Assembly (NCBI GenBank): GCA_014526335.1
Contig: JACTAT010000153.1
Location: forward strand, 124,001-188,000
Source: Chrysaora quinquecirrha
Taxonomy: Eukaryota; Cnidaria; Scyphozoa; Semaeostomeae; Pelagiidae
DNA: 64,000 bases
Direction of reading: 5' to 3'
The notes beneath the pieces are model-generated. The model saw only the letters and a list, made by a program, of their open reading frames with translations. It searched no databases and was not told the DNA's origin. Positions 8,361 to 63,370 of this stretch are shown in pieces (position 1 is the stretch's first letter; every line of letters begins with the position of its first letter). A program made the position numbers and the translations under genes.

Positions 8361-9118
8361 TGGAAAAGTTCCGCGAAACGAGGTTCCCCGTTTTTGATTC
8401 TCGCATTATGGCAAAATCAATAACGCGGAATTCGATCTCGCGGAACTTTTCAACTTTGAAGTCAAATAGAGTTGTCTTCGCAAAAAACTTGCTTTAGGAT
8501 TAGTGTTCATTGCCCCTACTCTGACATCAGCTGCAAATGTGCAATGAAAGCACAAGTCGGCATATCCGCATTTGCCTAGGCCCACATTGCAATCACGGAC
8601 AAGGACATTTGTTCATATTTTAATTATTACTTATGTCTTGCAAAGGAAAAGAGCTTTATGAAGAAGAAAAGAGCATTTAAAGAAACTATCTGCGGCTTTT
8701 AGAGATGAACGACCTATATAGAAAGGTTCCGCGAAATGAGGTTCTCCGTTTTTGATTTTCGCCTTATTGCGAAATCAATAACGCGGAATTCGATCTCACG
8801 GAACTTTTCAACTTTGAAGTCAAATAGAGTTGTCTTCGCAAAAAACTTGCTTTAGGATTAGTGTTCATTGCCCCTACTCTGACATCAGTTGCAAATGTGC
8901 AATGAAAGCACAAGTCGGCATATCAGCATATGCCTAGGCCCACATTGAAATCATGGACAAGGACATTTGTTCATATTGTATTTATTACTTAAGTTTTGCA
9001 AAGGAAAAGAGCTTTATCAAGAAGAAAAGAGCATTTAAAGAAACTATCTGCGGCTTTTAGAGATGAACGACCTATATAGAAAAGTTGCGCAATGAGGTTC
9101 CGCGTTTTGATTTACGCC
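8361..9118 (+). repeat. 359-bp tandem repeat, two units and a partial third
   Basis: Units begin at GGAAAAGTTCCGCGAAACGAGG (near 8362), again near 8721 and, truncated, near 9079. Each contains AATCAATAACGCGGAA, whose complement occurs upstream near 8025 (GCGTTATTGATTTTGCC). The third unit breaks off where the 9129 element is inserted. Confidence 0.8.
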
Positions 9119-9128
9119 TTATGGCCTA

Positions 9129-31100: not shown

Positions 31101-31892
31101 TCTGCAGAGTAAACAGAACACTGCACAAATCACAATAAAATGTATCAATTCGCTTAAAGTAATTTTACAGCGACAGAGAGCGGACTTTCCCACATTTTAT
31201 GAAAGTGTGTGCTCGAAAGCAATGCTTCATCCTTTCATAGAAGAGCCGACCCTTCCACGTCAGAGAAGACTCCCTGTAAGGCTGAGAGATGGAGGTGCCG
31301 AGAATTACCAGTTTTCTGATCCAGAGTCATTCTACAGATCACAATTCTATGAAACTGTCGATTCATGCCTAGTCGAAATGGCTACAAGATTCGACGAAGT
31401 ATCTTATGCACCTCTGGAAAATATTGAGAAAGTTCTCTTGGATGCTGCAAATGGCCGTGATTTTGAGTTTATTGATGAAGTGAAGAACGGATACAAAACT
31501 GACGTCGATATTTCCCAGGTTGTACCACAGCTGAAACTGCTGCCAGCAATAATAAAATGCTCTGCTCCACAAATAAAGGCCGTTACAGCAATTGATACAA
31601 TTGTAGACATTGTCTCCAAGAGTAAGAAAGAGCACCCATGTCTTTCTGAAGTCACTAAGCTTCTCACTGTGTATCTGTTGGCTCCTTTGTCTTCCGCTTC
31701 AGCTGAAAATCTTTCTCAACCCAAAGAAGAATAAAAAGTTACACCCGAAGCACTATGTCAGAAAGGAGATACAACAATTTATTGATGATTTGTTCTCATC
31801 AACCTAGAACTGATAAAATAGACCTGAAAAGAGTTGCAAAAGAATTTGTAGAGCGCAATAGTAATCGCAAACTGCATTTCGGTAAATTCTGA
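28141..31892 (+). mobile_element. hAT element with DUF4371-type (ZMYM1-like) transposase; right end not found
   Basis: The left end is CAGTGGCGTAGGAGCC followed by GC-rich GGGGGGGCC...GTGCCCCCCA, the usual opening of hAT elements of this group. It is inserted in repeat family A; the paralogue at 10570 shows the uninterrupted sequence. The long 5' leader (28250-29200) has no gene. No inverted copy of the left end is visible after the transposase stop, so the right end is lost or heavily changed. Confidence 0.8.
29201..31892 (+). pseudogene. hAT transposase, DUF4371 family, two frameshifts
   Basis: The frame opens at ATG 29201 with a basic N-terminus and a long charged region. A TTF-type zinc finger begins at about residue 205 (YRWLTYCKTKGSVSCFF) and continues in the next frame (CKKA...FSHCAEEAF...NWKTCYEKLAKHAES); one extra T in a seven-T run near 29900 accounts for the shift. 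The 611-residue frame at 29899-31734 covers the RNase-H-like core, with IADESRDISNKEQL (first Asp), a second Asp in CRWQAYDGASTMSG, and HCANHRLDLAL and CPTRWTVR motifs. The hAT dimerisation segment LLAPLSSASAE is followed, one base out of frame, by SFSTQRRIKSYTRSTMSERR and a stop at 31890-31892. Apart from these two shifts it is almost complete, so the insertion is fairly young. Confidence 0.9.
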
Positions 31893-33198: not shown

Positions 33199-34313
33199 AA
33201 AAAACTGGCTCAAAGCTTAACCTCAAATTTTATTGCACATATTGACTAAATCAACCATGGAGATTTCAAATCCGAGATGGGCCAAAAAAAATTTTCACCC
33301 CAAGTTGAATTTTTCGCTTACGTCATCAACATGTGAAAAATGTACTTTGAACCGGTATAAACCTTTGCAAGTACAAATTATGGCAAAACTAACTTGATAT
33401 ATGAGCTCTACACAGTCAGAGCGTTTGAACGATATATAAGTTTTTTGAGTTTACTAAATTTAAAATTTTTAAATATGACGTCATCTTTATTTGATGACGT
33501 TATCATTGTCTTAAAAACAGGCAGCACAACAAGGAAAGATAACTTAGAATTAACGTTTGAACGGATTTATATGTATTTATGGGTGCTTAATTAAAAAATT
33601 TATGTCCCGATGCTTGAAAATTCCAGGAAAAATGAATTACCGGCATGACCGGCATGAAATCATATTGTATCTTGGTACAACTAATGCCATTATGCCAGAG
33701 GAAGTATAATATCCGTTTCGTTAACTTTGCGATTAAGATTTGAGAGAAAACATACATAATTTGACATCCTCAGTCGAAATGTAAATGTTGCGAAGCCCGG
33801 AAATGCCAGGAAAAGTCAATAAGTGGCATGGGTAGATGCCAGCGTTGCCGTAATTCTCGAAAATGTGTCAAATCTGTTGCGTTTACTTCATGAAGAAGAA
33901 CTAAGTGGAAACGTACAAAATTTGACATAATCATTCGAAATGTAAATGTTCCTTAGCCTTAGCCAGGAAATGCCAGGAAAAGTCAATAAGTGGCATGGGT
34001 CGATGCCACTGTTGCCGTAATTCTCAAAAATGCGTCAAATCTGTTGCGTTCTCTTCAGGATGAAGAACTAAGTGGAAACGTATATAATTTTATATCCTCA
34101 TTCGAAGTTTAAATGTTCCAAAGCCCGGAAATGCCTGGAAAAGTCCATAACCGGCATAGGTTGATGCCAGTGTTCCCGTAGTTCTTGAAAATGCGTCAAA
34201 TCTGTTGCGATTACTTCAGGATGAAGAACTAAGTGGAACGTGCATAATTTGATATCCTCATTCGAAATGTAAATGTTCCAAAGCTGGGAAATGCCAGGAA
34301 AAGTCAATAACCG
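33199..34313 (+). mobile_element. insertion of unknown class with 162-bp satellite
   Basis: The retroelement endonuclease stops near 33198 and resumes at NIDLFGKKG near 34314. The inserted block is AT-rich and noncoding for about 430 bases, then carries about four 160-162-base units marked by AAATGCCAGGAAAAGTCAATAA near 33805, 33968, 34130 and 34289. No inverted ends or target duplication are clear, and six to eight codons of the endonuclease are missing. Helitron-like capture is possible but unsupported. Confidence 0.65.
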
Positions 34314-34845
34314 GCAATATTGATCTTTTCGGTAAAAAGGGTTCAAGTTGCTGCGATCTTTTCTATTGTCTCATGACTTACAGCAAATAATCGCAAAGGA
34401 GATAAGAGTGACACAACATTCAGAAACGGTAATTGACTTGATTTGCGTTAACAACAAACACAGAATTGTTCAATGAGACGTGTGTGATACCTGCTTGAGT
34501 GACCACAGCATCGTCGTTTGTGTTGTGAAAGGTGGTGTTCCCAAGACACCTTTTCGCACATTTGAATACAGATCTTATAATAAGTATAACAAAGAACAGC
34601 TTTATAGCGATCTGAAAGAAATTTAATTGAACGAAATTGATTCAATTGGAGGTAATAATGAGGCTACCAAGCACTGGGAATCACTTTTCAATAAAGTTGC
34701 AGATAAACATGCGCCCATCAAGACACAAAGAGTAAAATGTTTTACAACCCCTTGGATTACAAATGAAGTCCTTCAACTGAGAGGTTAAAGAAATTACCAT
34801 TAAACAAAGGCACGAAAAACTATGTCCCAGTATCATTGGCAAATA
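34314..34845 (+). pseudogene. CR1-like endonuclease, C-terminal half
   Basis: Frames read NIDLFGKKG, then ETVIDLICVNNKHRIVQ and CLSDHSIVVCVVKGG. The SDHS box is the catalytic His motif of this endonuclease class. It continues into HAPIKTQRVKCFTTPWITNE, the usual linker before the reverse transcriptase. Confidence 0.85.
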
Positions 34846-40440: not shown

Positions 40441-42734
40441 CGCTCCATGCTAAACTACAATTTTAACGATAATGCTGTTGCCAGAGACTTTCGCTTCTCG
40501 TTGTCAAATCACTCTATTATATTTTTGAAGAAACTGGAGATTTGTAAACTTGTCTGTTTGCATGTTTGCGGCACTGTTGTTGCGGTTGTTTTCTGTCCGT
40601 TTCTTTGCTGTAGACAACATGGCGTGAAAGTTGAGGCAAAAGCTGAGAGTTCGAAGCAAGATAAAAATGAGAGGATATTTAACAACAATCACCAAGGAAA
40701 AAAAAGTTAGATATTCAAAGTCAAACAACAAAACATTATTTATTTCATTGATGAGAATCTTAGATGTACCAGTTGCTTTGGCGATCTACGGAAGCCCACA
40801 AAGTTTTAGCATTAGGCCTATAGATCCTGACCTCACATCCGGGAGTTTGCATTTGTTGTGCCTTAGCAACAACGCACAGGGGAAACTTGCTGTGTTTATG
40901 CAATACATTCTTTCGATGTTTTGCTCTCAACCTTGAGTGTAACACTTATATATATTTGTATATCGTTGAAATCAAGCATGTCTTATGAATATTCAGACTC
41001 CTTATCAGGACCTGATCGTATTAGATATGATAGTAAGTTAGATTTGATAGGAATGAAGGAATTCCCGTTTTGTCTGCCCGCGAGCTGCTGGAACAATAAC
41101 CCACAGACATGGCCTAACTTGACATACCCTGATATCTACAACTATCTGATTCAATCACCAGGTAATTTTCTATCAAATCATTGGCTAGAGAGCAAAGTTA
41201 TACTTTTCTTACTTTGTTAAGTTCATGCTTCAACGATTTCATCCAAAAGAGTTAACTGAAATTCATTCTTTTTACATTATTAGAAGTACACTTCACTAAG
41301 GACTCAATGAAGAATTACAAATCGCTTGAAGCCCACAATTACCTTTCCTCTGGATGGGTGCAGACAGTGCTTTCTCATCAGTAAAATAATTCATCGCATA
41401 TTCTGCTGCAAGCAAACGTTAAACCATCGTGGCGGGTTACTGAAGAATGCCATTCAGCATGGATAGCTGTAAAGACAAACGGGACAATCATCACTGAACA
41501 CTGCACATGCAAAGCAGGGTGCGTAAAATAAAATATTTCATTAAGTTTTTTGTTTTCACCCCAAAATTTCAATAAAGTTGTATTCTGTGAATCTAATAAA
41601 CTAATTGTAATAATCAATCATACAGGTTGGGAGAATCATGCTCACATGTGGCTCAGTTTTATTCAAAGTTGAAGGTGCTGTACGCCTTGGATATACTTCT
41701 GTGGCATGCACTAGCAAACCTTGTGAATGGAACAATTATTTTGTTAAAGATGTTGAGCCAGATGTTATCGCAAACATGAATTTCTAAACAGATGACAAAT
41801 TTCTAAGGAAAATCAAAGTTTAGCACCAAATAAAGCAAGCTGTGAGGAGCAAAAAGCCTTCCTACAAGCACTCTCTGAGAACAAAACGACTGCTATATGT
41901 CTGAGCACTTTTAAAGATTATGGAGAAAGATTTGCTTGGAAGAAAAATGTGTTTCCAGAGCAAGGCTACCCAAAAGCATTGAAAATTCTTTTTGCAGAAA
42001 ACTTGAAGAACACTGCATTTGTCACTGATATCTTTCAATATATGGCATATACTGAACAGCAAACTCCAACCCTTGAGAAAGCAACTACATCGCAGTCAAA
42101 ATGTCCATTGTGGCATGAGCAACGGATTGGAAGAATAACAGCATCAAAAGCCCATTCTGTGCTTCACACAGACCAGAGCAGAACAGCAGAGAGCATTCTT
42201 AGCTCCATCTGCCATCCAAGAATGGTAGAGTTAAAGAGCCCAGCCATTGTGTGGAGGAAAAAATATGAAAATCAGGCTGTTAGTGCATACAATAAGCATT
42301 TCCTTGGCTCTAGTGACCAGCACACAATATTTCTCTCTGGAGACATGATAATTTCTCCTGGACTACTGAGAAGTCATACAAATATGGTTGTCAAAGAAGC
42401 TGGATTTTTAATTTCTCAAAATCACCCTTGGCTTGGTGTTTCTCCAGATGGATATGTTAGTTGTGAATGCTGTGGTAGAGGTGTTATTGAGGTGAAATTA
42501 ACAAATTCTTGGGCAAACCAAAGATTTACTGCTCAGCAAATGTTGGCCGATAAATCTGGGCATAGTCAAAAGAAGGGATAGCCTGGAAACGGACAATCAG
42601 CTATTGTTCAATCTTTTTGTTAGGAAAATAAGACTAGTACCCATTCTCTTACACGCATACAATGTTTGATGATGGCCGCTCGCACATCTGTGTATTATTA
42701 TTGTGATTAGGAATAATTTTTGCTTTTTGAAAAT

Positions 42735-45423
42735 ATGCCAGGAGATAATTGTTCAATTTACGGCTGTTCTATTTCGAGAAGATCTCAATACAAAGGTATA
42801 TCCTTATTTAAAGTTCCATCTGGTGAAGGGAAGTTTCAAACGGATTGGAGACAGAAGCTGATCAACGTTATCACGAAGGATAGATTTATTGATGGTCCTT
42901 TGAGAGCTCAAATTGAGAGTCGAAAGTTGTTTATCTGTCAGCTTCATTTGCTGAGGATCAGTATCATCGTCACAACAATAAATGCACATTGGTTCCTGGT
43001 GCTATTCCTTCTTTGAATCTTCCCATCAAAAGTATTCCTTCTTCATTTTCTGCAGTAAAGTAAATCAGCAGATGCTATTCAAGAAAAGAAATCTCTGCAT
43101 GCAAGTTTGGAGCCACTGGCATCAAGTAACGTTGAATGCTACAAGACTTTTCGCCAACATTCTACTCGTGTTGACACTCTTAAGTTAACTGGTTGGAATA
43201 TATCAAATGATGCTTCAAGTAACATTCTCTCCTTTTCTTTTGCCGACCAAATTCATATGGTGCCAAAATATGAAATTCATGTTAAAGAAGATCTTTCTTT
43301 CACTGTTCGTGTGTTGCTGTGGAGTCTTCCTGCGATTCACAACTTGTATGTTCAAAATCAACAATCATTAAAGAACATCACAATGTCAAATTTAGTTAAA
43401 TCTACAACATCCTTGTAACTTTGTCCTGGTTTACCACATTAATTTCTTTGTGGCTGCATTGAGCATTCTGTGCCAAAGATCACAGTACTCCTCTCCAACA
43501 AAGCAAATGGTATCACCCTCCTTCTTGTCTTGTTTTGATTCCTCCATCTTCTACGAAATGTACCCAATGCATAAATATTGAATCAAAGGAAACATTGAGT
43601 TTAAAAAGAAAAAGAGACAATTTGAATATTCATGCTAAATTAAAAGCTCCTATTACTGCAACTGCCCCACAACGTGTTAAACTAACCCTTCAAAATTATT
43701 GCATTGAAAACCAGCAATTGAAGGATGGAATTATCATTATGCAAGAAGAAATTTCTCAGAATTCTCTGAATGTTGACAACAACCTTGACGATGATTTAGT
43801 GTCTATCATGTCCGGTGCTGATAAAAAGAAAATTCGTCCTTTTATGAAGCTCTTCTGGGAAGAACAACAAAAGTATCTCTCTTCTTCAAAAACTAATGTT
43901 CGCTACCATCCTATGATCATTCGTTACTGTTTGGGATTGGCAGCTAAATCTCCAGCTTTTTATGATGAAATCCGATTAGATGACAAAACAAACAGTGGGT
44001 CTTTGGTTTTACCAAGTCGCAGGCGTTTAAGAGATCACAGAACTATATTCGTCCAAAACAAGGTTTCAACAAAGATATCATCCAAGAGCTCTGTTCAATT
44101 GTTTCTGATTTCCAGGACATTGAAAAATATGGCATTTTGTTGTTGGATGAAATGAAAATCAAAGAAGATCTTGTTTGGGACAAACATACTGGTGATCTCA
44201 TTGGCTTTGTTGACTTGGGTGATCCAGAAATTAATTATGCTACACTCAAGAAGTCTGATGAACTAGCATTCCATGTCTTGATTTTTTTATTGAGAAGTAT
44301 TGTGAATCCTGTCAAAATTTCTTTTGCCAACTTTGCTACATCAAATGCAAAGTCAACACAGCTTTTTCCTTTATTCTGGAAAGCAGTTGGAATTTTGGAA
44401 GACAAGTGTGGAATCAAAGTTGTTGGTGTTACAAGTGATGGTGCATCTGCTAACCGAAGCATGTACCGTATGCATTTGAATATGACCCGTGTACAAGATC
44501 AAAATGATGACGTAGACGTGGTATACCATACACTCAATGTCATGGCTGAGGAAAAAAGGTATATATATTTTCTTTCTGATCTTCCTCATTTGCTGAAAAC
44601 TGCTCGCAATTGCCTTAGAAATTCTCTTGCTGGATCATGTACCACAAGAATGTGGAATGATGGAAATTATTTAACATGGAAGCACATCTCCAAACTGTTT
44701 TATGAGGATTTGGAATGTGGTCTACATCTTGCTCCAAAGCTTACAAATGAGCACATCAATTTTTCAAGCTTCTCAGTCATTAATGACAGACTTGCAGCTC
44801 AGGTTCTAAGAGAATCAGTGTCTCAGACTCTTTAAACAAATGGCCCTCTGGAAGCACAAGCCACTGCTACATATTGCCAAATTTCTGATAAGTTTTTTGA
44901 CTGTAGGAAAGTCAGAAACACCACTGAATGTACCCGTAAAGCAAAGGCACTTATGAAGCCCTATCAGTCAGAGTATGATGAACGTTTTGGATGGCTGACT
45001 GGCACTTTTTTAAGATACTTGGCTGATTGGAAAGATTCAATCAATACTAGACCAGGGGAGTATAATGACAATGACAGAGCAAATATGTTCATCTCCTCGC
45101 AAACCTATGAAGGTGTCAAGATCACCATCCATTCCACTATTCAACTTCTTCAATACTTGCTCCGTGAAGGTGCTCCATACATACTTACAGAAAGGCTTTG
45201 TCAGGATCCCCTTGAAAACTACTTTAGACGTCAGAGATCAATGGGTTGACATAAAGATAATCCCTCCCTGCGCGATGTAGTATATAATGATAACACTATT
45301 TGCACAACTAAACTTTTTCGCCCAATTGCTGGAAATTGTTGCAGTGATAATCCAGAAATAGCAAAGATTAATGTTGAAGCAGTCCCCTGTCACCCGAGGA
45401 GCAAGAAGAAGGTAATACAGTAA
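42735..45423 (+). pseudogene. P-element transposase (THAP9-like), several frameshifts
   Basis: It opens with a THAP zinc finger: MPGDNCSIYGC, then FKVP and W, and KLFICQLH as the second Cys-His pair. A region with coiled-coil character follows. The catalytic core holds GILLLDEMKIKEDLVWD (first Asp), VVGVTSDGASANR (second Asp) and FLSDLPHLLKTARNCL. The C-terminal box LCQDPLENYFRRQRSMG carries the expected acidic residues. Frames break near 42945, 44045 and 44835 (TAA) and at 45249 (TGA), so it is inactive. Intron donors and acceptors were not placed with certainty. Confidence 0.9.
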
Positions 45424-46016
45424 AAACCTACATGTGTAAGAAAGTTAATTTATATTTTTTATCAGATATAATTGTAATCATTGTTAAGTAAGGTGCTGAT
45501 CAGTCAAAAATGAAACAAATTTCTTATTACAGCCAAGATGATTAAAAGAATTTTGCAACGATATTCAAAAAGCAAGAACATCAAAATATATAATCTTACA
45601 CATGTCCAAATGCTTGTTATTATATAAATACTTATTACTACTAATTATTTCTCAAATAAGTTTCGGCGCAATAGAAACTCTCTGTTTGATCAGCCTTGTT
45701 TCTTAATTAATGAGAGTTTATGTAGTACTGTTTTGCCTTTATATACTAATTGTTGCTATATTATGTCTTATGTTTTTTTCAAGGCTATAAATATTTTGTT
45801 CTGAACACAAGCTTTTTGATCAAAATTCAGTTATATGTATACAGTACTACCATTGTTTTGTTAGCATTAAATTAAATAAATAAATAGTAATAGAAATAAT
45901 TAGTTAAGGCATGTTATTAATGTCCTTGGTCAAGACTGCCAGTTGCTCTCTTTAATTCTGTACGAAGTGACCATTCTTTCTTCTTTTTTGCCTGGATATT
46001 GTGTATTTCACATCTT

Positions 46017-47118
46017 TTACATATGAAAATGTTCATATTCGAACATACAAAAAAAACAAGTGTTCCAGCAAATTGAGTGCAACTTCCTTACTGACTTTAT
46101 CTGAAGCCTGATCACATAAATTTCTATAATTGGCCAAGACAATTGGATTGGCCAGTACGTTAGATACCAACTGTTCACTGTCAATTTTCTTGCTCCATTT
46201 CTGTGTGAACTGCCAAAATTTTGCCTCAACAACAGAAAAAAATTTGAAGACTTCAGATGTAACTGTCCAAAGCCCTCCTCTATCGTTTGCATGTGTAAAA
46301 GAATTTCGCTCCTCTGACGAACTACCTTCAAAAGGTGCATTTCCGGCAAGCAATATAGTTGAGCTTCGACATCCCAGCATACTTCTTGTGGAATTAGATC
46401 GTCTGATTCGTTGATACACTGTACAAAAACATAGCCACTAAGATACTGTATAAGGTTATCTTCTTTGGATGAAAAGGTTATAGGAGGACTGAAATCAATG
46501 TCTCCCTCTTTGCCAACAGTTGTGCCAGTTAAATGTGCCAAAACATGATTTGCCATGTCAAAACCCAAGATGATTGACCCCCTCCTGGAAATGTTTCTGA
46601 AAACGATTTCCTCAGACGACACACACTTGTAAAACTCTGGGTAAAACTTTTCAGTATTACCCTTGACAAAACTGTATGAAAAAATGGCATCGTCAATACT
46701 GACTTTGTAATCAGAAAACTCCTGGCACAACTTTTTGGAGTAACACTCATCAGAAGCCAACTTTTCGACACTGGTTTCAATTAATTTCATTTCATTAAAA
46801 TTTCATTAATTTCATTGAAAGCATTTGTTCGGGAGTTTTAAGGACCTGTTTTGGCGTAGCAGAAGTGTCGACAACTAGCCGAGCATGCTTTGCATTTGTA
46901 TGCCTACTCAACCCTCGTTTTGTTTTACAAACTTTGCCACAAGTTAAGCACGAAAATTCTTCAGCGGGAAGCAAAGAATCTATTTCCTGAACGAAAATAT
47001 TTTAACTTTCATCAAAATGCTTACTTTCTGCGGGTAAATCTTCATCAAGAAGTGCCAAAACAGCATCCAGATCGTCACCAAAGAAAAAGTCTTCATCACC
47101 ACAACCAGAATTTGCCAT
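46017..47118 (-). pseudogene. P-element second gene: C2H2 zinc-finger protein
   Basis: The first ATG is at 47118, and the N-terminus is acidic (GDEDFFFGDDLDAVLALLDED). After one in-frame TAA the same frame continues to a C2H2 finger, CLTCGKVCKTKRGLSRHTNAKH, near 46880-46945. The frame from 46790 carries a longer region with ILGFDMANHVLAHLTGT and IQYLSGYVF, then shifts at about 46390 and ends near 46050. The family is not one I can name. It lies wholly within the P-element ends and opposes the transposase, so it probably belongs to the element rather than being a trapped host gene. Confidence 0.65.
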
Positions 47119-47699
47119 GTTTACTTTTTGGTGTGCACGTAGGAAACTGGGTATGAGTTCAATTCAACATGCAAAAACGAACAATAGTAGATTTCAATAG
47201 GCTATTGTTCCGTTTCCAGACTATCCCTTCTTTTGACTATGATCTGGGAATCTGGACATAAATGTACAATTAAAAACTTCACACCGTTATTATACTCAAG
47301 CTCTGCTTCAAATGTTATGTAGCTGATGTGACATACTGCCATTTTATAACATGGACTCCAATTGATTGCTTTGTGGAAAATGTTGCAAGGAACCAACAAT
47401 ATATTAATGAAACTGTCACTAGACTGCTGAGCTTTTGGAAACTGCACATTTTTCCAGTATTGTTTGGTTCTGAGACAAAGGAAAATGACACCCCAGAAGC
47501 AAAAACTATTTATTGCAAGTGTCAAGAGGAGAAAGATGAAGATATGGTTGGGTGTGATAATGAAACATGCAGATACCAGTGGTTTCACTATATCTGTGTA
47601 CGCATAAAGTCTAAACCAAGAGATAAGACATGATTCTGCAGTAAAAAATGTCGTACATTATTTGAAACAAAACAGTAGCTAAATACTAAATTATAAACA

Positions 47700-49474: not shown

Positions 49475-51020
49475 TTATAGATTGACAAAATGAGCAGATG
49501 AGGTGAAGAGAAGATAAAAATTTTAATGCTTACGTTAAATTTTTGCTGAAAAAATTTTATTCTTTGTTTTTTCTGTAATCATCAATTGCTTATGAGCAGT
49601 ATAATATAATATATTGAAACAAGGAAGTGTGCTTCCAACTTAAATTCCTCTTGTGACGAGTTAGAAGTCAGATGAAATCACAAGTAACTACTAAATAACA
49701 AAAGCGGCCGTTGTGATAATTAAAAATTTTAATTTTGTCAAATATCTGATTCGAATATCTCAATATCGTTACTGATTCCGTTTCTAAAATTTTGCAAGGC
49801 TTAAAGTCAGCCTTGTTTACAAGCTTACATCAATCACACAACAAACAGTTACAAGAAAACCTTGAGAGGGGGTGGATTCGAAATCCCCCAGTAGGATTAG
49901 GATTAAAAACAATTGTGTTGAGCAACATAAACAAAACAATTGTCTGCGCCCTGACACCCAGGCATGTACATAGCTAATTGAGCATATTTGAGTAGCCATC
50001 TACATCTTCAAAATGAGAAATTCCTGAATATGAATTATTAAATTGAATTACTAAAAGACCAAAAATTGCAAATTACGTTTTTCTGAACACTTTTAGACAG
50101 GGCATATAGTCCAACAATCTAACAATCATGCTAACTTACATTTTCTCGACGGATTGCGTTACGATAAGCTCTGAAGTTAGAGATTCAATTGCATCTTTTA
50201 ACTAAAGGACTATTTGTCACGTGACAGATGACATTATTTTTGATACAATTTCAATGTTTCAAGTCATTGTAACTCGACTAATAGTGGTCCAATCGTGACA
50301 ACACCCGCATATTAGGCATTGTCACCAAGAGCTCGTTCGAATGATGTGTAACTATGCAATATTAGCTTACATCAGCATTTTGACAATCACATGACCATGG
50401 AAACATTTAAGATTATACTTTGTCTTTCAATGTCCTTGATCCTTAAATTGAATTGATTATTGAAATGCCACCCACTGTCTGCTATTGTGTACCGGATACT
50501 AATATCAAACGATCATATCCTGTTCACATCACTAGTGGATTCATATCTGAAACACGACTCAAACGAACAGCTTGCATCTAGAGACATTTTCGGAAAATGA
50601 TGATTGAGAGAAAATGGAACTATCTTCATTCTTAAATCTTGAATCTGCAACTGGTATCAAGTGCTTGTCTTTCGAGTCTTCTATTTCCAAGAAAGATGAT
50701 GTCTAACTCACAAGGTTTGGGAAAACGTGAAAAGAAAGGCAAATGAATGGAGTTGTATTGATATCAGTGCTGATGATAAGTTTTATCCTTTCAATCATTA
50801 TATCAGCGTATAAAAGACGTCGATGAGGCATTTGGAAATATACACAACAACTGCCGAGTTTAATTTGATTTGAAGTTGCATGCCTTCAGGAAAAATTAAA
50901 ATCCCACTTCTTCCAGTAATGGAAAGGCGGTAATATGAACTGTGAATTCGCTGAAGGTATTGGAGATAATAATTCCCGAAACAGAAAATCAAAAAGAGAA
51001 GCAAACAATCAACCTTGTTC
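49475..51020. other. no gene recognised
   Basis: I find no domain-bearing frame. A frame beginning MPPTVCYCVP at about 50465 recalls the start of a zinc-finger exon but breaks after 37 codons. No paired ends are visible. Confidence 0.45.
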
Positions 51021-51055
51021 CCAGGGCTATTCAGGCGAGCCATGAATAGCCCTGG
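51021..51055. repeat. perfect 12-bp palindrome at the element's left end
   Basis: CCAGGGCTATTC (51021-51032) and its complement GAATAGCCCTGG (51044-51055) surround 11 bases. The right half is the left end of the 51.0-63.2 kb element; the left half lies outside it. Confidence 0.85.
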
Positions 51056-51218
51056 TACCTAACCCACGATTCGTGGGTGATTATGAAAATTTATGCATAA
51101 TTTATGCATAACTTTTTTATAATTATAATAATACATTAAAGATGATAAATCATCATATCAATTATTCGATTCAATATTTTGGCAGGAACAAGCAGCCTAA
51201 TTTTCTGATATTCTGAAG

Positions 51219-53258
51219 ATGGAGGCTTGGAAAATTATCGTCAACTTCTTTCAGAAGCTAGATTTTGCTCTTCAGAGCTCTTGCTATATCGAAACAGGGA
51301 TTGTGTTGAAGCCTGCTCAAATACAAGCACTCTTCTCAGTTCATTCAGGGCAAGATACAGTTGTCCTTCTTCCGACTGGTTACGGAAAATCTGTTATCTT
51401 TCATCTCTTGCCTTGGCTGATGTTGAAAGATTAAAAGAACCAGTTATAGTGGTAGTTGTTTGTCCTCTAAATGCACTGATCTTTGACCAGATAAAGAAGC
51501 TTCGGTGTCTTGGAATTTCAGTGTCTTTTCTACAATCTTGTGAGTCAGATTTATCACATTCATTGCAAAATTCCATCCAACAAGACGGCCTAATGCAAGC
51601 ACAACAACTAAATTGCAGATCAATGCTACAGTCCATTCCAAACATTGCTTTCATTCATCCAGAAGCAGTCGTTTCTCCATCAGAGACCATAAGAGAAATT
51701 TTCCTCTCTGAAAATTTTCAGCAAAACGTCGTTGCCAGTGTAATTGATGAGGCTCATTGTGTTGTTGAATGGGGTTCACGGAGAGACACCTATCTACTAA
51801 CTTTTTGCTTGCTCACCTAACTACTTTATAATTTATCTTTTTGTGTCCTTGTATTAGCTAATGCTGATTTGTCTGTGGCTTTCTCTTGCCTCTCAATTAA
51901 GTATTTCAAAACGAAATCCTTGTTTACCTATCCTTTTATCTTGTGCTATTTATGAAACAATCAAGAACTGTACTGTACCTTAATTACTTGTGTTTAAAAA
52001 CTCCTTTATAAAATTAGATCATTGCTATAATTTCATGAAGTATTACCTTGGCTATAAATCATAATTTCTGTGAAAACTGGGTAAATTTTTTCATTTGTCA
52101 TTTCAGGAAAAATGCATTCAGATCTGACTATGGTAATCTGTCCATTCTTCACTCATATTTTCCAAATGTGCCAACCATTGCACTTACTGCTACTGCTCCA
52201 CCATCTCATTTAAAGATTATTGTAAGATCACTCCAGCTTAAAAACCCAGTTTATGTTTCACGGTCATCTAACAGGCTTAACATATTTTACAAGAAAGAGG
52301 CACAACTTCCAACAAACTATGGTTCCAAATCATTTGATGAAATTTTAATCCCTATTGCCAATTCATTAAAGAATCTTACAACTGAGTTTCCTCTTACCAT
52401 TATTTACCTTCCTTTGAGATGGTGTGGTTATGCATATAGACTTTTCGAGGATATTCTTGGAGAAGCTCAATATTCCAGCTTTGAAGCAATTCCTGAGAAT
52501 AGACTATTTGCACAATTTCATGCTACCCAAGAAACACAATGAAAGATCTGATTTTAAGCCAGATGGTTACTGGTAAACCTAAATGTTGTATCATTTTTGC
52601 CACCTCAGCTCTTGGAATGGGAGTTGATGCTCCTAACATAGAAAATATCATTCATATTGGGCCACCAAGGACTTTAGAAGCCTACTTTCAGGAGACTGGC
52701 AGAGCTGGAAGAAATGGCTGCAGAGCAAGTGCTCTTCTTTATTTCAATAAGGCTGATATTAATCAATCTCTCAAGGAAATGGATGATTCTGTCAGAAATT
52801 ACTGTTTAAAACATACCACTTGTCTAAGAAAACTTTTACTGGTACATTTTGGATTCAAAGTTCCTACATGTAATCCACATGAATATTGTGATGTTTGCCT
52901 TAGTAAATGTACTTGTGCTGATTGTTTTTCTGCTTCTGTATCAGCTGAAGTTCTGTCTGAACCTATGGATGTTGATCCATGTTTAACGGAGAAGCCAAAA
53001 TGTTTTTCAGCAATAAACAAGGAGCATCTTAGACTTGAATTGGAAAACCTTTGTCTTGAGATTGGCAGCCAGTCGTACCCTATAGGAGGAGGGATAGATT
53101 CTGCAACTGGATTTACATTGGCACTGGTTGAGGAAATTGTAGGAAAATGTGACGTAATTACAGATACCGATTTCTGAATGGAAAACTTTGATTTTTGGTT
53201 TAGAGAGCATGCTAAATTAGTTGATGGTATTATTTGCAACCATGCAAAAGACAACTAA
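51219..53258 (+). pseudogene. RecQ-like superfamily 2 DNA helicase
   Basis: From ATG 51219 the protein shows a Q-motif-like KPAQIQALFSVHSGQD and motif I, VLLPTGYGKSVIFHLL. After a frame shift near 51427 it reads IVVVVCPLNALIFDQ (Ia) and VIDEAHCVVEWG (II). A likely intron spans about 51775-52107 (poor GTTCAC donor, TTTCAG acceptor). The second exon has IALTATAPPS (III), and after another shift at 52540, CCIIFATSALGMGVDAPNIE (V) and AYFQETGRAGRNG (VI). A Cys cluster, YCDVCLSKCTCADC, stands where RecQ zinc-binding residues lie. The frame meets TGA at 53175 but stays open to 53258. No HRDC domain is seen. It would unwind DNA 3' to 5'. Confidence 0.88.
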
Positions 53259-53369
53259 TAGGATCTAGCATCCTAGAACAACTAAGATCAAGCTACTTAA
53301 CATTTAATTATGGCCTTTATTTCATCAACGTTGCAATTATTTTAAGTTTTCAGATCCTTTTCAGTTCTT

Positions 53370-55568
53370 TTAAATGTTTTTTAATCCACTGGTTGAATTC
53401 TCCCATGTTAAGTCTTTCTTTGGGGTTTGCTTTGATTTCAGGAAATAATTCATATTTCCTACCAGGAATAACAAAAATGGTCTTATTTTCATAACATCTT
53501 TTATCATTTTCAGTGCATCGTTACTTTCTCTACTTCTGGTGTGATGAGTTGATGTTTCAGCAACATCTGAGCACTTGCCAAAATTTGTCATAATGTCCCT
53601 GATTCCAGTTACAGCATGAGTGTGCAAAGAAATAGCTTTTTCTGTCTTATTGGCTCCCATAGACTTGATTAGATCTTTTGCTAGTCTTATACAGATTTCT
53701 TGGGCCAAATCATTTTCGATATCCGCGGCCACCTTTCCAGTTAACAAATTTGCCCCATTTAATCTGTTCTGCCATCCTTTCAGAAAGTAATACTCCCTTT
53801 TGTACTATCGAAAGCAACATTTCCAGTGCATATTTCGAGTAGCTGTTGTTTGCTTTGAAAAAAGAAAGCAGTAACTTTTCATTTACAGCCGCTCTGTTGC
53901 CGTTACCTTCCGCAGCAGTATCTTTTAGCTGTAATAGCATTACTATTAAGTTGATAATTTGCAGACCATAGTTACGAACGTGGTCGTCTTCTGTAGGTTT
54001 TTCTGCTATGGGCTCAAATGCTGACTTTGACAGCAAAGGGCTCTCTCTTCCATGTAGAAATTGTCTTCTCTAGCATTGATGGCAGTTTCTTTAGCACTTT
54101 CATATATAAGCAAAAGAAAAGGCAAGAGTCGATTTAGTGATTATCTGATATAATTTCAGTGTTAGTGAAGCCCCTTCATGAAATAGGCACCTCTGCGCAA
54201 CAGCACTCTCCAAACAGTGAACAAATATTTCTTTTCTGAGGTTATTTCTTAATTACAACAAACAACCAAGCGGATACCCCTCAGCAACAGACAATATCAT
54301 TGGTCCCAGAGAGTTGTCTTTGTATAATGGTTCCATTACATTTAACCTGTCTTTCATATTGTTGTGTATCGTTTTATCATTTCGTTGTGGAAAGTTACAC
54401 CTAACAGTAACTCTCTTTAATAAGAGAATCTTTATAAAAATCACAGAGGAACAAGAATTAAAGAAATAAAAGTAAATTCGAAATTGAAAGATTCTGTAAC
54501 AGAAATTTTTGCGTTGGCTTTCTGAAGATTATTTACGTTTTATCTTATGCAATCCCATCGTTCCCTACAAAAATACGTTTAGATAAGATTTATATGCCCG
54601 AAATTCTACCCTGCAAGGATTTCCTGATCTGGATTATGAAAAACGTTTTGATCCACAAATCTGCCCACGATGTCGTCAAAATATTTTTGCTTCTGCACTT
54701 TGGATTTGTGCATTATATTTACTGGGCGTTGATTTTTCGTAGGACCATTCGTCAGACCATTAATTCCCCAGAATTCCATTGCGGCTGCGATTATGTAAGC
54801 TTTGCCAACACTTATGAAGAATTGCTCTGTTCCTTCATAACTTTTTGTTACCCTTTCTGCATTGACACTTTTTCTATTGTAGTGCTCTTTAAAGAAATGC
54901 AATGTTCCTTCTTCTCTTGTTGACTTGTTGCTGTACAGATTCACATAGCAGTACTGTGGAATTATGGATGATAAGAAAATGTTACATTTCATATAATCAG
55001 GATTCCTTTTAGGTTTTCTTTTTTTGAAGAATGTTTATGTTGAAAGAAATAACAGAAGCAGGCACACTGGAAGCACGTGGTAGCGAGGGCGACTGCCCCC
55101 TTCCCCCTTCCCCGTCAAAATTTGCTGCTTCTGTCGTCGCCACCATGCCTTGCTTTTGGCGCCCCTTGACAAGAGAAAGATAGAATGAATTAACAAATTG
55201 AAGACTTCATTTTCCTGAAGAAAGGATGCTTTTGTGTGCCAAAGTTCACAGGTGTAAGGAATGGTATGATCAAATCGCTGGGTGGCAGTTTTGTTACCTG
55301 CTGTAAGATCTCTTGCTCCAGCAAAACGAACTCGGATAAGCTGGTCTCTGCCAAAAAGGACTGAAATTTCCTTTAGCAGATCTTGTTCGTCTTGCTGTCA
55401 GAAATGTGCACTTGGTTGATCTGGCCTTGCAACGCCTCCTGGATTCAATTCCATTAAATCTTCTTTGTAATCCTCATTAATTTTTCTGGCTTTTTTGTAA
55501 ATTCCCCATATCCATTTCTCATACGCTCGCATTATTTGAACAACATCGGAGTACAGGTTCTCTGAATA
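53370..55568 (-). pseudogene. DUF6589 gene, final exon left of the pogo element
   Basis: Just left of the pogo end the frame reads SENLYSDVVQIMRAYEKWIW, continuing directly from the right side of the pogo element. Downstream are LFGRDQLIRVRFAGARDLTA (55380-55310), WHTKASFLQ, and at 54992-54606 the phrase HYNRKSVNAERVTKSYEG with PTKNQRPVN. From 54036 come KLLLSFFKANNSYSKYALEM and RMAEQIKWGKFVNW, and the last frame ends at 53370. The 54040-54600 stretch lacks open frame and may be an intron or a worn piece. Confidence 0.75.
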
Positions 55569-55581
55569 CATTAATCTCCAA

Positions 55582-55710
55582 AATTTTCGGACCTATTATT
55601 TTCGGACATTTAATTTTCGGACACAAATTTTCGGACAAAAATGTCAAAAATTTCGGACAATTTCGGACAAAATTTCGGACATTTTCATATTAGTAAATAA
55701 AATTTCGGAC
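55582..55710 (+). repeat. left subterminal TTTTCGGAC array of the pogo element
   Basis: About nine copies of (T)TTTCGGAC(A/C) occur in direct orientation within 130 bases, often 10-20 bases apart. They are likely binding sites for the transposase's N-terminal helix-turn-helix region. Confidence 0.85.
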
Positions 55711-56070
55711 ACAATATAATTTCATAGATACATCACAGAATAAATGGAATACGTTGTTTCACTTCATGTCTCAAAACAAAACTGGCATGGTTACCATAGT
55801 ACTGTTAAAGTTATGTAGAAGCTTCGATCAGAAAAGACTCACATGATTATATCAACATAACAGAACATGAATAAATATCACAAGCATAAAAACGCCAACA
55901 GAACAGAGTTATACAAAGCTAATTAATAACTGGAACGAATCAATAAATAAGAACATGAGTCACATGATTCATGACAACTTCCCTTTCCTGCAAGTACTGT
56001 ACATTCATAAAGTATGTAAAGTATAGTAAAATATAGTATTAACAACAGTTTCTACAATCGTTTTGACAGC

Positions 56071-57506
56071 TTAATCTAAATCAGCGAAGGGATCCTCAGG
56101 TTCAAGTTCAATATTTATTGCCTCTGTTATTCCTGCAATTTCAAATCCCTTCATTATAAGATCTCTTTTGTTGCGAAGATGGTCATACAATCCAATAATC
56201 CATTGCGCGTGCAATGGTTTTATGATGCTCAAATTTGTTTTTACGTTAATAGAGTATACGTCAGTGCCTGCTTGCATTTGCGTTGTGATTTCATCGCATA
56301 CCAGTCTTGAAACTTTCCTGAAAGGAAAGTTTTGATGGACCATTCACTGTTAAATCTAGTGGTTGAAACTCACTCGTTAAGTTATTTGGTACGTATACAT
56401 ACACGCAGTGATTTTCGGCCATGAGATCCAGGATACGTTGCGTCTTCTGCCCCTTAAAAACATCAAAAATCAGAAGAGCCTTTTGATCATCTGGTAAATT
56501 AAGCTCTGAACGCTTCTGCTTCAAATAAGGAAATATAATTTCTTCCAAAAGCTCGATGGCTTTTTCCTCGTTACTCCAGTGATTAGGCGTGTGGGTAACA
56601 TTAAATCCATCCGGAAATGCAACTCCCTGTGGATGGCACCTTACGGTTTTTCCTTGGTAGATGATTTGCATCGGAAGAAACTCGCCACTTTTCGTAATCG
56701 TGAATGTGCCAGTTATCTGCTTTTTCTTACCCTTCCCTATCAAAGGGACACTTGCTGCACCTCTTTTATGCAGGGTATGGTTCGGAGCACAAACGTACGA
56801 CAATGGCGTTTGATCGTAGTTTAATATCAGCTCGTCCGGAATCTTGTAAAGTTGCTGCAGCGTTTTGATGTCGCGTTGAAATTTCAGTTTCTCCTCTTTC
56901 AGAATACCAGGTGCAACAGGAATTTTAGCTGTCGTCCCCATTCTCCGACTCATCTTTTCTCCGTTTTTCTCTAATCGATACAAAACATTTCTTCCCCATT
57001 GGTGATTCAAACTTAAATACCCACCATTTTCGACAAGTAAAGATCGATCATTTGCATTAATGATACCTTCGCGACACTGTTAATGATAGCCGCACTTACA
57101 GGAGCACCCTTGAGGCGTAAACCTTTATTATTTTAATTGTTTTTCCATTAACTCCTCGGGCAATAATTGTTTCCGACCCTTTTTTGTTCTTTAACTCTTT
57201 CACATCGCAACCATCTTCAACGCGTCTTTTAAAATCGCTAACGCTTTGTTTCTTCAACCCAGGATACTTTTTTGACAGATCTCGAACAGTTTTGGCAACT
57301 CCGTGCCTTATAGCGTGCGTCGATGTCTTTCTTCTCTTCCCACTCCAAGTTTTATATTTACCACGAGTTTTGCCTCTTTCTTCTAAATGTTCCAGTGACT
57401 GGACGACCTCCTCGCGCTCACGGACCGTGATGGTTGGCAGCTCTTCTTGACTGCACTCTCCCACTACGTTCGACGCAGTCTTTGTAAAATAATTTAGAAT
57501 CGACAT
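56071..57506 (-). pseudogene. pogo-like transposase (DDE_1), two frameshifts
   Basis: ATG 57506 opens a basic helix-turn-helix region (HAIRHGVAKTVRDLSKKYPG... then SVSDFKRRV). After a shift near 57100 the frame has NGGYLSLNHQWGRNVLYRLE and the catalytic box ELILNYDQTPLSYV (first Asp). It continues with KALLIFDVFKGQKT (second Asp) and VPNNLTSEFQPLDLTVNG (third Asp), the DDD pattern of pogo elements. A further shift near 56345 precedes the C-terminal LSIIKPLHAQWIIGLYDHLR and an acidic tail, EPEDPFADLD, ending at 56071. Length and order are normal for the family. Confidence 0.92.
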
Positions 57507-57945
57507 TTAAAAGTTTGCTCAACTAACTACAACTACTTTTGCTGCCCAGAAGCTTTATAGTCAGAATTAAAAAAGCGTGTCATCCAATACGGTTTGCAGC
57601 ATGAAATTCCAAATGAGGATTACAAACGGTTCATTGTCAATGTCACACCTAATTTCAATGAATGATCCCCCTCACTTATGAAAGAAGCACTTGACCTACT
57701 AACATTACAAAAGAATACTTGATTATGGAAAACTAACATGGATTATTCTGTTTACACTTTTATGGTTTTGACTGTAAGTCGCGTGCTATCTTTAAAACAC
57801 GCTTTGGAACCAGGGTCTAGAATTTCTAAACTGGATTGTGGAATCTAGATCTTGGACCTGGATATGGAAACTTTACCATTAGGGATTGCATCATGCGTCT
57901 AGAAATTGAGTATGTGGAGAATTATTAATGGTGGTGGGCAGATTG

Positions 57946-58012
57946 GAGGTTGGCCAAGTGGTTAGAGTACTGTATATTAAATAATTGCGATGGGCTCCAT
58001 GAGACCCTCACA
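57946..58012 (+). other. tRNA-like or SINE-like head
   Basis: GGTTGGCCAAGTGGTTAGAG resembles the A box and D arm of a tRNA (or a tRNA-derived SINE). A weak B-box-like CTCCATGAGACCCTC follows 40 bases later. The cloverleaf is not complete. It lies between the two divergent pogo genes. AGATTCCAG-type short repeats follow at 58012-58060. Confidence 0.35.
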
Positions 58013-58122
58013 GATTCCAGATTCAGGTTCCAGATTCCAGTTTCAAGATTTCAGTTTCCATGTTTTACAGAAAGCCGTATGGGCTGTATCCATTTTCACA
58101 ATGGTGTTAGCTTTACATTACC

Positions 58123-58815
58123 GTGCAACTACTAAACCTGACTGCCCTCCCTCGTTTCTTCATTATCTTTGAAAACAAGTATTGGGTGGTACGAGAAGTC
58201 ACGATGCAAGCTAATTACACGACGTTGATAGCAAGTCGCGGATGGCATGTGTACGGCAAGACAGCATGGGTTTCACCGCAGCCGGGCGAGAGCCTATTTG
58301 CTAAAAAAGAAAGAGACCCGAATGCTCTGCTGGCGGATCCATATTCTATAGCTTGGATGAGAAAATGTCCATCCAGGTTAACTGCAGATGTCGTCGGGCA
58401 TATGCCCAGAGAAATATCACGATTTGTTCATTATTTCTTAATCCGTGGTGGCACGATCAGTGCTGTTGTTACCAATGGGCGCTATCGCCCGTCCCCTATT
58501 CCAAAGGGAGGGCTGGAGATTTTGCTTTCTGCCACACTAACGTTGGCAATGATGATCAAAGATACTTGCAACGATTAATCAAGCTGATTAATGATAACTA
58601 CGATCCTGCCGCCAATCATGCCGAACACAATGATTCTGCAAATGATGAAGAGGGAAGATCTGAAGATGAGACCGAAGGAGAAACCAGAAATAGAGAGAGG
58701 AAGATCCTGTGGAAGATATTTTCTTCTTGATGACGAAGATTGGGAAAATGAACCTGAGAGAAATGAAACTAGCAATAATTCAGACGAACATGACGAAGTT
58801 ATTATTTTAGATTAA
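58123..58815 (+). pseudogene. HIRAN-like domain protein carried by the pogo element
   Basis: The recognisable part begins near 58230 with RGWHVYGKTAWVSPQPGESL and AKKERDPNALLADPYSIAW. It then reads VVGHMPREISRFVHYFLIRG and SPIPKGGLEI. The pattern YG.xxW.P..GE.L, DPY(A/S)(V/I)A, VGH.PRE.S and GGLEI matches HIRAN-like proteins, a fold known from helicase-like repair factors that bind DNA ends. After a frame shift at the GGLEI box the chain continues with QRYLQRLIKLINDNYDP, then shifts again into an acidic tail ending in EVIILD at 58815. The start may be the internal ATG at 58204. It is divergent from the transposase and wholly inside the element ends. Confidence 0.65.
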
Positions 58816-58919
58816 TGCTGTACTTGTTTTATTTAGATTATTGCTGTACATGATCCAAAACAGAGTCTTGCATCTGATTTGAGTACTTTTATGCTTGAAT
58901 TTATTTTATTTATGCAAAA

Positions 58920-59095
58920 TTAAATTTTCGGACATTTTGAGTATCGGACAATAAAATGTTCGGACATTTTAATTATCGGACAATTAAATTTTCGGACCAC
59001 TACAATTTTCGGACATTAAAATTTTCGGACAATTGAATTTTCGGACCCCTCTTTTGTCCGAAAATTGAAACGTCCGAAAATTTTGGAGATTAATG
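58920..59095. repeat. right subterminal TTTTCGGAC array of the pogo element
   Basis: About eight copies of TTCGGAC(A/C) in direct orientation and two in inverse (GTCCGAAAA at 59056 and 59073) lie within 175 bases. The copies mostly keep the plus-strand orientation of the left array instead of mirroring it. Confidence 0.85.
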
Positions 59096-60350
59096 TACAG
59101 CAAAACAGGCATTGATGAAATCAAGGACTTATTTAAAATTTCGTTCATGTATGGATGCAGAATATGGTCTGGCAATATGCCTTTAAGAAAGCTGTGAAAA
59201 ATAAAAAAAATAATTAACATAACAAGCTACATTTGTTTGGCCCTATTTGGACTGGAGGGAGCGTTTCTCGGCCTCGTGGTGGACTGTTCTCTGCTGAACC
59301 AATATCTCTTGCTGAAATACACGGACCTTTCATAAAATTTATTTAGCTTTCATATTGAAAAAGTTTCATTGTTAAATATTTTGCAATTGAGACCTTTCCA
59401 GATCCTTTCTTACCTGAAACACTCAAGAAATTCTACCAATACTCTTGCCACAAGGACTTTAGAATTTTCTTTGAGCATTGATATATCATCTTTGTTTCGC
59501 AAGAATACCCCAACATCAACTCTATTTATGTCTCTCTTCGGAGCACTGTTATCGAGATCTGGAAATTCTAGACGATTCACTATTAGATTGGTTGCGAATA
59601 GATGCATGTCAATATTTTGGCATGCAGAAGTCATGTCGTGTCTATGTGGTAAAGATCAAGGTTGTCACCGGTTCCTCTGAAAGTTTTGCCCTTTTTAACT
59701 TCAGCGACAATTTTCTCATCAAAATGACTGCCAATCTTTTTGGGCAGGTTCTGTTTCCTTGTGTAAGATAAGCATATGCCAATTTTCTGAGGGGATCACA
59801 GCACTGAAATGTAAATTTGAAAAACAATTGACATTAAAAATAAATAGGAGAAAGATCAAAAAAGTACTGAAAACTACAACATCTTGTTATTTACCTTCTT
59901 ACTTGCTCCACCTAGAGTTAATACCACTGTCATCAATCTTTGAAATAGACTGAAATCCTTGCACCTGGCCTGCATCAGGAGGCTATAAACCACTGCCATT
60001 CTCTTCTCAAGTTGTTGATTCTTGGCGTGTTTCATGTTGCCAGGAGATCCAACTGCATTAAGGACATCGAGCAGTTCTGAGCAAGATCGTAATTCCTCTT
60101 TCATTCTATCCCAATCAAACGATATAAGGCTGTCAACTATAGTAGACCTAAGATATGAGGATGACTTTGTTTTGGTCATTTGCTCAGCTTTTCCTGCAAT
60201 TCTAATCAAATACTTGTGCCAGATTACTTTTGACAGTGTTTGGCAACTGAGTATACCATCGGCCATACCCGATGCAGATGATCTTTTAATAACGGAATTC
60301 AGTTTCAGGTGTTCTTGTCGCATAATTGGATTGCCAAGTAAACTGTCCAG

Positions 60351-61842
60351 CTATATAAAATCATGATGCGCTAATTAAATTAAATTTTTGGGTGAAAGGA
60401 GATGAAGATACCCAAAAAACTAAACTCTTTGTTTAAAAAAGATAATTCCATGGGATGGTGGTATTTAAATCTGAACCCGGTGAGGGTAACAACTCCGGAC
60501 CGGGACGTGGGGACATAGATTTCCCATGACTTTGTACCAATATCCGATAAAAAACACTCGACTTTATGTCAACTTTAGTCAAACGTAATGCAAAATATCC
60601 CATTATGGATATGCTTTTAAGAAATCTCCAGATTTATTGGTACACAGTTATACGAAACTATGCTCTGAGCCACATACAGAAGGGTGTCTGAGCACAATTA
60701 GTATAGTAAAAGTTTCTTGCAGAGTTTCTTAACTTAAATATCTAAATTACGAAAATTTCGTGAAATTCAGGTTAATCAAAATTTGTACCAATTTTAGGCA
60801 TTCCATCCCCCCTTTGATTCATTCTGAAGGTTTGACTATGATACATTGAATAGTTCAGAAATTGTTCATTACGAGGTTATTTTATTTTTTGAGCTCTCCT
60901 TTTCTGTCACGCATTACAAGGTGGTCTGTAATTCTATTGGACAGTTTTTGAACATAGAACAATAAATCTGCATCCACAGTTCGATTTTCAACTTCAAATG
61001 GAACGTTCATTTTAAATTTTGTTGGAAGTTATTGCAGGTCTAAATTTTCTAGTGATGTCAATCAATTTAAAATGTTCATGTAAAATTGTATTTTGGAGAT
61101 AGAACCTTGGTTTCTCGATATTTCAAGAAAGTGAATGCAACTTTTAGGAAACTTTGAGCAAAATTGAAGAAGTGGGAAATTGATGAAAACCATTCCCATT
61201 CGCAAGTCACAAATCGATTGTACAAATCATGCAAGTTCATGATCACAAATCTTTTTGCAACTATTCATTTACGATTGTACAAATAATGCGAAATTAAGAG
61301 ACACATTCTATTCAAAAATTGATTTAAAGAAAAATTACATCTCCTCACTGTCAACATCTGATAAAACTCTGCTATTTAGAGAAATTTTAGAATCTGATAG
61401 TAAAAAGGTTTTAACAAGTTTAGCATCATTTGTATATCATTCAGAAATGAAAAGAAATGAAGGTAAAAATAGAATTGGTATGATTTTGAAGGGTATTCTA
61501 TATATTTCAAATAATTATACATATAATGAAAAAGCTGATAGTGAATTAAACATCGTTGTAATAGAAATATATTTTTTTTAGTATTTGATTAATTAATGTT
61601 AGTGTACCACGTAGTCTTGCAATTTAGCTAAATCGTACTTTTATTAGCATTTTTTGTTAATTAATTGCGACTAAATTGTAAAACTGCTAGACCCCTGAGA
61701 GGGTGTTGAAATTGATGAAATGAAATGAAATGAAAAAACTGATGATTATATTTCACAGAGGTAACTCTATGTTTGTTAATTTCATGTTATGTCGATCTGT
61801 TTTTAATTTCAAGAAATTCAAAGATCCGAGCAGTATCTCACC
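60351..61842. other. intron of the DUF6589 gene; one unexplained plus-strand frame
   Basis: AT-rich. A 108-residue plus-strand frame at 61255-61581 (containing KTLLFREILESDSKKVLTSL and ASFVYHSEMKRNEGK) has no family I can name; it might be the tail of a retroelement. A short (GAAAT)n tract is at 61715-61737. Confidence 0.45.
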
Positions 61843-63370
61843 TGATGTAAACTAGAAGTTGACACATTTCTTTATCTTCACTTTCGTTGACTTTCTTTTT
61901 GATGGATACGTCGTCCTGAGACAAACAAATGTTTATTAGTACACTGATTGCAAATCCTTTTTCACAAATTGAAATAGGAGAAACAATTGTTTTTAGACTT
62001 TTTTATCCAACTTACCTGTAATGATTTTAAAGCTGAAATATTCTCTTTTTGCGCTCGTATTTCTGTCTGGTTCTGGTTTTCTTTGTCAAGAATTTGAACT
62101 GGTACTTCTCCTTCCTGAAACATTAAAGTTTTCTTATCTTCAGTTTATCTATGTTACTTGATTAATTTTGAATCCACAGTTAGTTTTATATGAAAGGACA
62201 CTATAAATACAGTACAGTATCTTATATTGCTACTTTTGATTCACTTCTGCTATTTTAACAAGGCATTATCGTTCCTACGATTGTATATATATCTTTCTTG
62301 TGTTTTCTTTCAATCTCACATTTTAGTCATTTCATGTTTTTGGTAGTAAATGCTTTTTTGGTTTATTTGACTTTTCTTACAGGTTGTTTTCTGTTTTCGT
62401 GATTCCTTCTTATGAGTCCTTCTTATGTTCTCAATGTTTCTTTACTGCTTGGAGTCCTATTAAATTGTAAAAATATTAACCTTTTGAAAATCAATAACCT
62501 CTTCTTCAATAAACTAGAAGGTCAACTCGAAACTATTTGTAGTCTATAACTAAATATGGAAGTGCATTTATCTTACCTCATAAGATTGTGAAGTTGAAGT
62601 TTCTTTTTCTCCTCTTCCAAGAGCATTTTCTTTGTCTTCTTCTTTGTATTTTTCAAATAAACGCCTTGGTTGTATGTTTCTCAGAGGGAACCTTTCTTCA
62701 GGTTTTTCATTTGGGGTTGACTTGCTTAAAGGGATATTTTCCAAATATTTATGCTTTCTTGGTATACGCTTTCTTGGTAGTTTTAGTTGTTTCTAAAGGT
62801 CCTTCAGTATTATCATGTGAATTAAAATGCAAAGTAGTGACTTTTTTGTTGCTTGTTTTCGAAAGTCGTGGAAGGTTTCAAGCTTTTTATCGCATGATCT
62901 GCCTTTTTTAAACAATGTATTGCCACACATTAACAGTTCATAAATTTTACTCGGCAGATTTTTCGTCAAGCCACTAAAACTATAAATAGCCAATAAATAT
63001 TTACCATCTGTTTCTTTGTTGCATAAAACACAATTCAATTTACACGCATTCATCATCATTTATCTACAAGTACCAAAAATTATTTTCCGCCATTGTTTTG
63101 ACTAGGCCCTTCCCTGTCGCAAAATTGCATTGCTAGACAACCATAATAATCGCTAATTTATGCTAGTGTTGCGAAAAATTACCAATCAGAATCCAGAAAC
63201 GCTTGGTAGGTACCAGGGCTATATCTTTCAAAAAAGCCCAAGGAACGAGGTTGGCAAACAATAAGAAGATTTGTTCTTTTTGCACCGAAATCAGAGTCAC
63301 TGATAAACGGTTTTCTAACCAAGGTGGGCTTGGAAGATGTGAGCAGGAAAGCTCTAAGGAAAGGACATGA

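Follow-up and report, generated by a model that had tools for sequence, protein, structure and literature searches.

A broken DNA transposon with RecQ-family helicase and DUF6589 genes, most likely of the AcademH lineage, in Chrysaora quinquecirrha

Do two genes that converge between short inverted repeats in the cnidarian Chrysaora quinquecirrha, one for a RecQ-family helicase and the other of the DUF6589 family, make up a transposon, and if so, of what kind? The pair lies in a stretch of 64,000 nt (assembly GCA_014526335.1, contig JACTAT010000153.1, positions 124,001-188,000 of the forward strand) that we refer to as the window and whose numbering we use throughout. An initial annotation, which had bounded the pair by 16-bp inverted repeats, ATAGCCCTGGTACCTA, proposed a new transposon class. 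We find that the two genes do belong together in one unit, whose inverted ends abut the two copies of a 9-bp direct repeat, and that positions 51010-63253 very probably represent a broken DNA transposon, with RecQ-family and DUF6589 genes, whose lineage is most likely AcademH. What was claimed as a new class is, by this account, probably one more element of a lineage already described, and its ends are corrected here.

With the outer inverted repeats taken as its ends, the element spans 12,244 bp. We place the ends there because the terminal inverted repeats (TIRs) and the flush repeat GCAAACAAT stand out in two controls. A flush exact 9-bp direct repeat was found at only 1 of 51,738 positions at equal separation, namely the GCAAACAAT pair, and when 9-mers occurring more than once were paired at a spacing of 500-20,000 bp (9-mers of one or two letters excluded), just 1 of 9,128 pairs enclosed an inverted repeat matching at no fewer than 14 of 19 bases, namely this element. 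GCAAACAAT is present exactly twice in the window, once beside each outer TIR, and we infer that the pair is the target-site duplication of one element copy. Both ends of the element have the terminal sequence 5'-CAACC, the end sequence being CAACCTYGTTCCYWGGGCT, and a TIR pattern that was composed to fit both ends has, with up to three mismatches, two matches in the window against 0.03 expected. DDE cut-and-paste transposons are recognised by TIRs together with a flanking duplication, and 51010-63253 has both. We note separately that the left-TIR pattern CAACCTYGTTCCYAGGGCT has exact matches in three bacterial records (L001, L002 and L003), which may be chance matches or eukaryotic contamination.

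Table 1. Features of the element at 51010-63253 (window coordinates).
Feature	Position	Strand	Remarks
Left 9-bp direct repeat GCAAACAAT	51001-51009	.	exact, flush with TIR
Left TIR CAACCTTGTTCCCAGGGCT	51010-51028	+	16/19 bases match other end
Left-end palindrome, 13-bp stem	51021-51055	.	inner part of TIR plus 16-mer
Left 16-mer ATAGCCCTGGTACCTA	51046-51061	+	exact; subterminal
RecQ-family helicase gene	51219-53177	+	broken, several frames
DUF6589 gene (predicted transposase)	53347-63059	-	exon-like pieces, frame changes, nested insertion
Nested DDE_1-type (pogo/Tigger-like) transposon	55569-59095	.	DDE_1 reading, frame 56291-57079
Right 16-mer ATAGCCCTGGTACCTA	63207-63222	-	exact; subterminal
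Right TIR CAACCTCGTTCCTTGGGCT	63235-63253	-	16/19 bases match other end
Right 9-bp direct repeat GCAAACAAT	63254-63262	.	exact, flush with TIR

The 16-mers that the initial annotation regarded as the ends of the element are indeed an exact inverted pair; the true ends, however, likely lie 36 bp (left) and 31 bp (right) farther out. No flush direct repeat was found beside the 16-mers, whose 30-base flanks share 4-mers at the longest. Allowing up to three mismatches, ATAGCCCTGGTACCTA has three matches against 0.15 expected, a number reached in none of 100 shuffles, and the third copy (three mismatches, at 51015-51030) overlaps the proposed left terminus; it is this imperfect copy that pointed outward to CAACCTTGTTCCCAGGGCT and CAACCTCGTTCCTTGGGCT. 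By itself an exact 16-bp inverted pair is nothing unusual in the window, which has 20 groups of them, some belonging to tandem arrays or to other transposons. Folded as single-stranded DNA, the left-end palindrome reaches -14.6 kcal/mol (z -6.1), a value matched by none of 200 shuffles. The right end forms a weak palindrome (z -1.6), with 14 of 200 shuffles equally good.

Between the 16-mers the arrangement is the one first described, with two convergent genes, a RecQ-family gene on the + strand and a DUF6589 gene on the - strand, whose first in-frame ATGs (51219 and 63059) are about 150-175 bp away from the 16-mers. What went unrecorded is that frame changes are needed in both genes alike, and therefore neither is intact. 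In single frames of the helicase gene, DEAD scores 27.1 bits (cut-off 26) and Helicase_C 38.6 bits (cut-off 23.5), with RecQ_Zn_bind slightly below its cut-off (24.7 against 25 bits); when the pieces are joined, DEAD rises to 62.1 bits. The family model TIGR00614 (recQ_fam) gives 214.7 bits, slightly below its cut-off of 219.8, and the top sequence matches among solved structures are those of BLM. The gene likely contains an intron at about 51780-52107.

The pieces of the DUF6589 gene were located by tblastn with three relatives (P0003, P0004 and P0063), and its N-terminal segment aligns with the zf-AD-bearing part of P0004. Single frames score 22.7 and 15.3 bits against PF20231, both below the Pfam cut-off of 27, and the joined pieces score 79.9 bits. 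We note that Pfam labels PF20231 (DUF6589) a 'family of unknown function', whereas the structure model considered here has a transposase-like fold. That model, of the closest DUF6589 relative among the matches listed (pLDDT 87), aligns best with the P-element, Hermes, RAG1 and ISCth4 recombinases, at 7-11% identity in the structural alignments; Foldseek alone returned no significant match for it. Three acidic residues, D188, D382 and E676 (P0003 numbering), are nearly invariant, and the protein is predicted to be an RNase H-fold DDE transposase with these residues and a large helical insertion. The earlier suggestion that the DUF6589 protein does the cutting gains backing from this predicted fold.

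In an alignment of relatives (A2), 83 of 84 proteins match PF20231, and the relatives that carry organism names, among the matches listed, come from Hydractinia, Dendronephthya, Oculina, two hemichordates and several bivalves. DUF6589 is common in fungi too. We consider it probable that PF20231 is the transposase of helicase-carrying transposons, an RNase H-fold DDE enzyme resembling those of P, hAT and RAG1, which would bind DNA through its zf-AD end and act together with a RecQ helicase that opens the palindromic ends. If so, the DUF6589 proteins of cnidarians, hemichordates and molluscs would be the products of transposon genes rather than host genes, many 'uncharacterized proteins' of this kind would be transposon-encoded, and PF20231 would gain a testable function.

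A second transposon, missed by the initial annotation, interrupts the DUF6589 gene. It is bounded by a 26-bp exact inverted match, TACATTAATCTCCAAAATTTTCGGAC (55567-55592 and 59072-59097), which includes the TA duplication, and the tblastn pieces of P0003 break at residue 302 and restart at residue 302 across it. Because the nested element sits inside the DUF6589 coding region, the outer element must be the older of the two; without the nested transposon and one TA it would measure about 8.7 kb. Within the nested element, overlapping frames at 58111-58815 (+) may encode one protein opposite the transposase strand; the two frames scanned gave no Pfam match above the cut-off.

To which lineage does the element belong? 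The hosts of AcademH reportedly include both animals and fungi, which are said to be named in the title of a 2020 paper on AcademH by Kojima (Mob DNA 11:15). A RecQ-carrying transposon is not new, since one paper lists 'RecQ Helicase in Academ', which was thus in print by 2013 (PMC3627910). A later paper gives duplications of 9 or 10 bp for AcademH and of 3 or 4 bp for AcademX, and ties these lengths to the encoded helicase and nuclease (PMC10045372, 2023). The element at 51010-63253 encodes a helicase, in a broken RecQ-family reading, and is flanked in its one copy by the 9-bp GCAAACAAT; it is because helicase and duplication length both agree with published AcademH that we file it there. One further paper traces the transposon-derived helicases of fungi to AcademH, KolobokH and Helitron (PMC10799480, 2024), and another gives a mean length of 5,565 bp for curated bivalve Academ elements (PMC10294476).

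Other transposons with RecQ genes have to be considered. The element might be a RecQ-carrying Kolobok, either KolobokH or an element of the CCri type; in Kolobok-1_CCri, RecQ is on the complementary strand, and the present helicase is likewise opposite DUF6589. According to PMC9587614 (2022), KolobokH carries RecQ and is found only in fungi, Kolobok has a 4-bp TTAA duplication and 5'-RR termini, and solo KolobokP has repeats of 3-5 bp. Because the 9-bp GCAAACAAT and the 5'-CAACC at both ends disagree with Kolobok, we regard this assignment as very unlikely. It is slightly easier to imagine, though still improbable, that DUF6589 elements form a separate unnamed superfamily outside Academ, which gained its RecQ gene and 9-bp duplication independently. 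A literature search on DUF6589 and PF20231 returned no text tying DUF6589 to Academ, and the likeness to Academ was drawn from published descriptions; nevertheless, a RecQ helicase and a duplication of 9 or 10 bp are both features reported for Academ or AcademH in the papers cited above.

The remaining alternatives concern whether there is such an element at all and where it stops. Two host genes could lie by chance between inverted repeats, as might be thought from the exon-like pieces in both genes, from the fact that RecQ helicases are mostly host genes and from the frequency of exact inverted 16-mers in the window (20 groups); against this stand the rarity of a TIR with a flush 9-bp repeat (1 of 9,128 pairs), the broken state of both genes and the predicted transposase-like fold of the DUF6589 protein, and we attach hardly any weight to the idea. 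We find it just as difficult to believe that the element stops at the 16-mers, the outer repeats being part of a different element: the 16-mers pair exactly and the outer TIRs at only 16 of 19 bases, yet it is the outer repeats that are bordered by an exact 9 bp, and the 16-mers have no flush repeat. Assignment to AcademH, with TIRs as ends, is therefore the reading we carry forward.

How might such an element move? The transposase may bind the TIRs and the subterminal 16-mers and cut at the TIR ends, after which the ends would be joined into target strands 9 bp apart, with repair leaving GCAAACAAT on both sides. Less surely, the helicase might unwind the ends, of which the left is a strong palindrome, or a strand-transfer or repair intermediate. 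For the question of why a cut-and-paste transposon would need a RecQ helicase, the 13-bp left-end palindrome offers a concrete candidate substrate. The 51010-63253 copy itself is a fossil, because neither gene has an intact reading frame. Possibly it is still mobile in trans, for which another copy would have to supply the proteins.

The window contains further mobile DNA. At 42561-47241 there is a P-type transposon with inverted ends CATAGTCAAAAGAAGGGATAG, flanks ATCTGGG at 42554-42560 and 47242-47248, and, on the + strand, a TNP-like RNase H domain and a GTP-binding insertion domain; the open frame into which it has inserted (41796-42581) has a YqaJ nuclease domain. A 617-aa open frame at 29881-31734 (+) has a DUF4371 domain (6.4e-20) and is probably another transposase-derived gene, DUF4371 being associated with hAT-like elements. 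Tandem arrays of long units lie at 4024-4580 (307 bp), 8363-9125 (358 bp) and 33748-34316 (167 bp).

The P-element, hAT (Hermes) and RAG1 transposases resemble the DUF6589 protein as predicted, namely with an RNase H-like fold in which a helical insertion precedes the final acidic residue. P-element, hAT and RAG1 elements differ in duplication length and are not known to carry a RecQ gene. KolobokH and Kolobok-1_CCri share with the present element the pairing of a transposase and a RecQ helicase, and differ in duplication and ends. From AcademH we found no difference in the features compared, helicase gene and duplication length, although the 51010-63253 copy is broken and carries a nested transposon; by published descriptions both are DNA transposons with a helicase gene, and the 9-bp repeat falls within the 9 or 10 bp given for AcademH.
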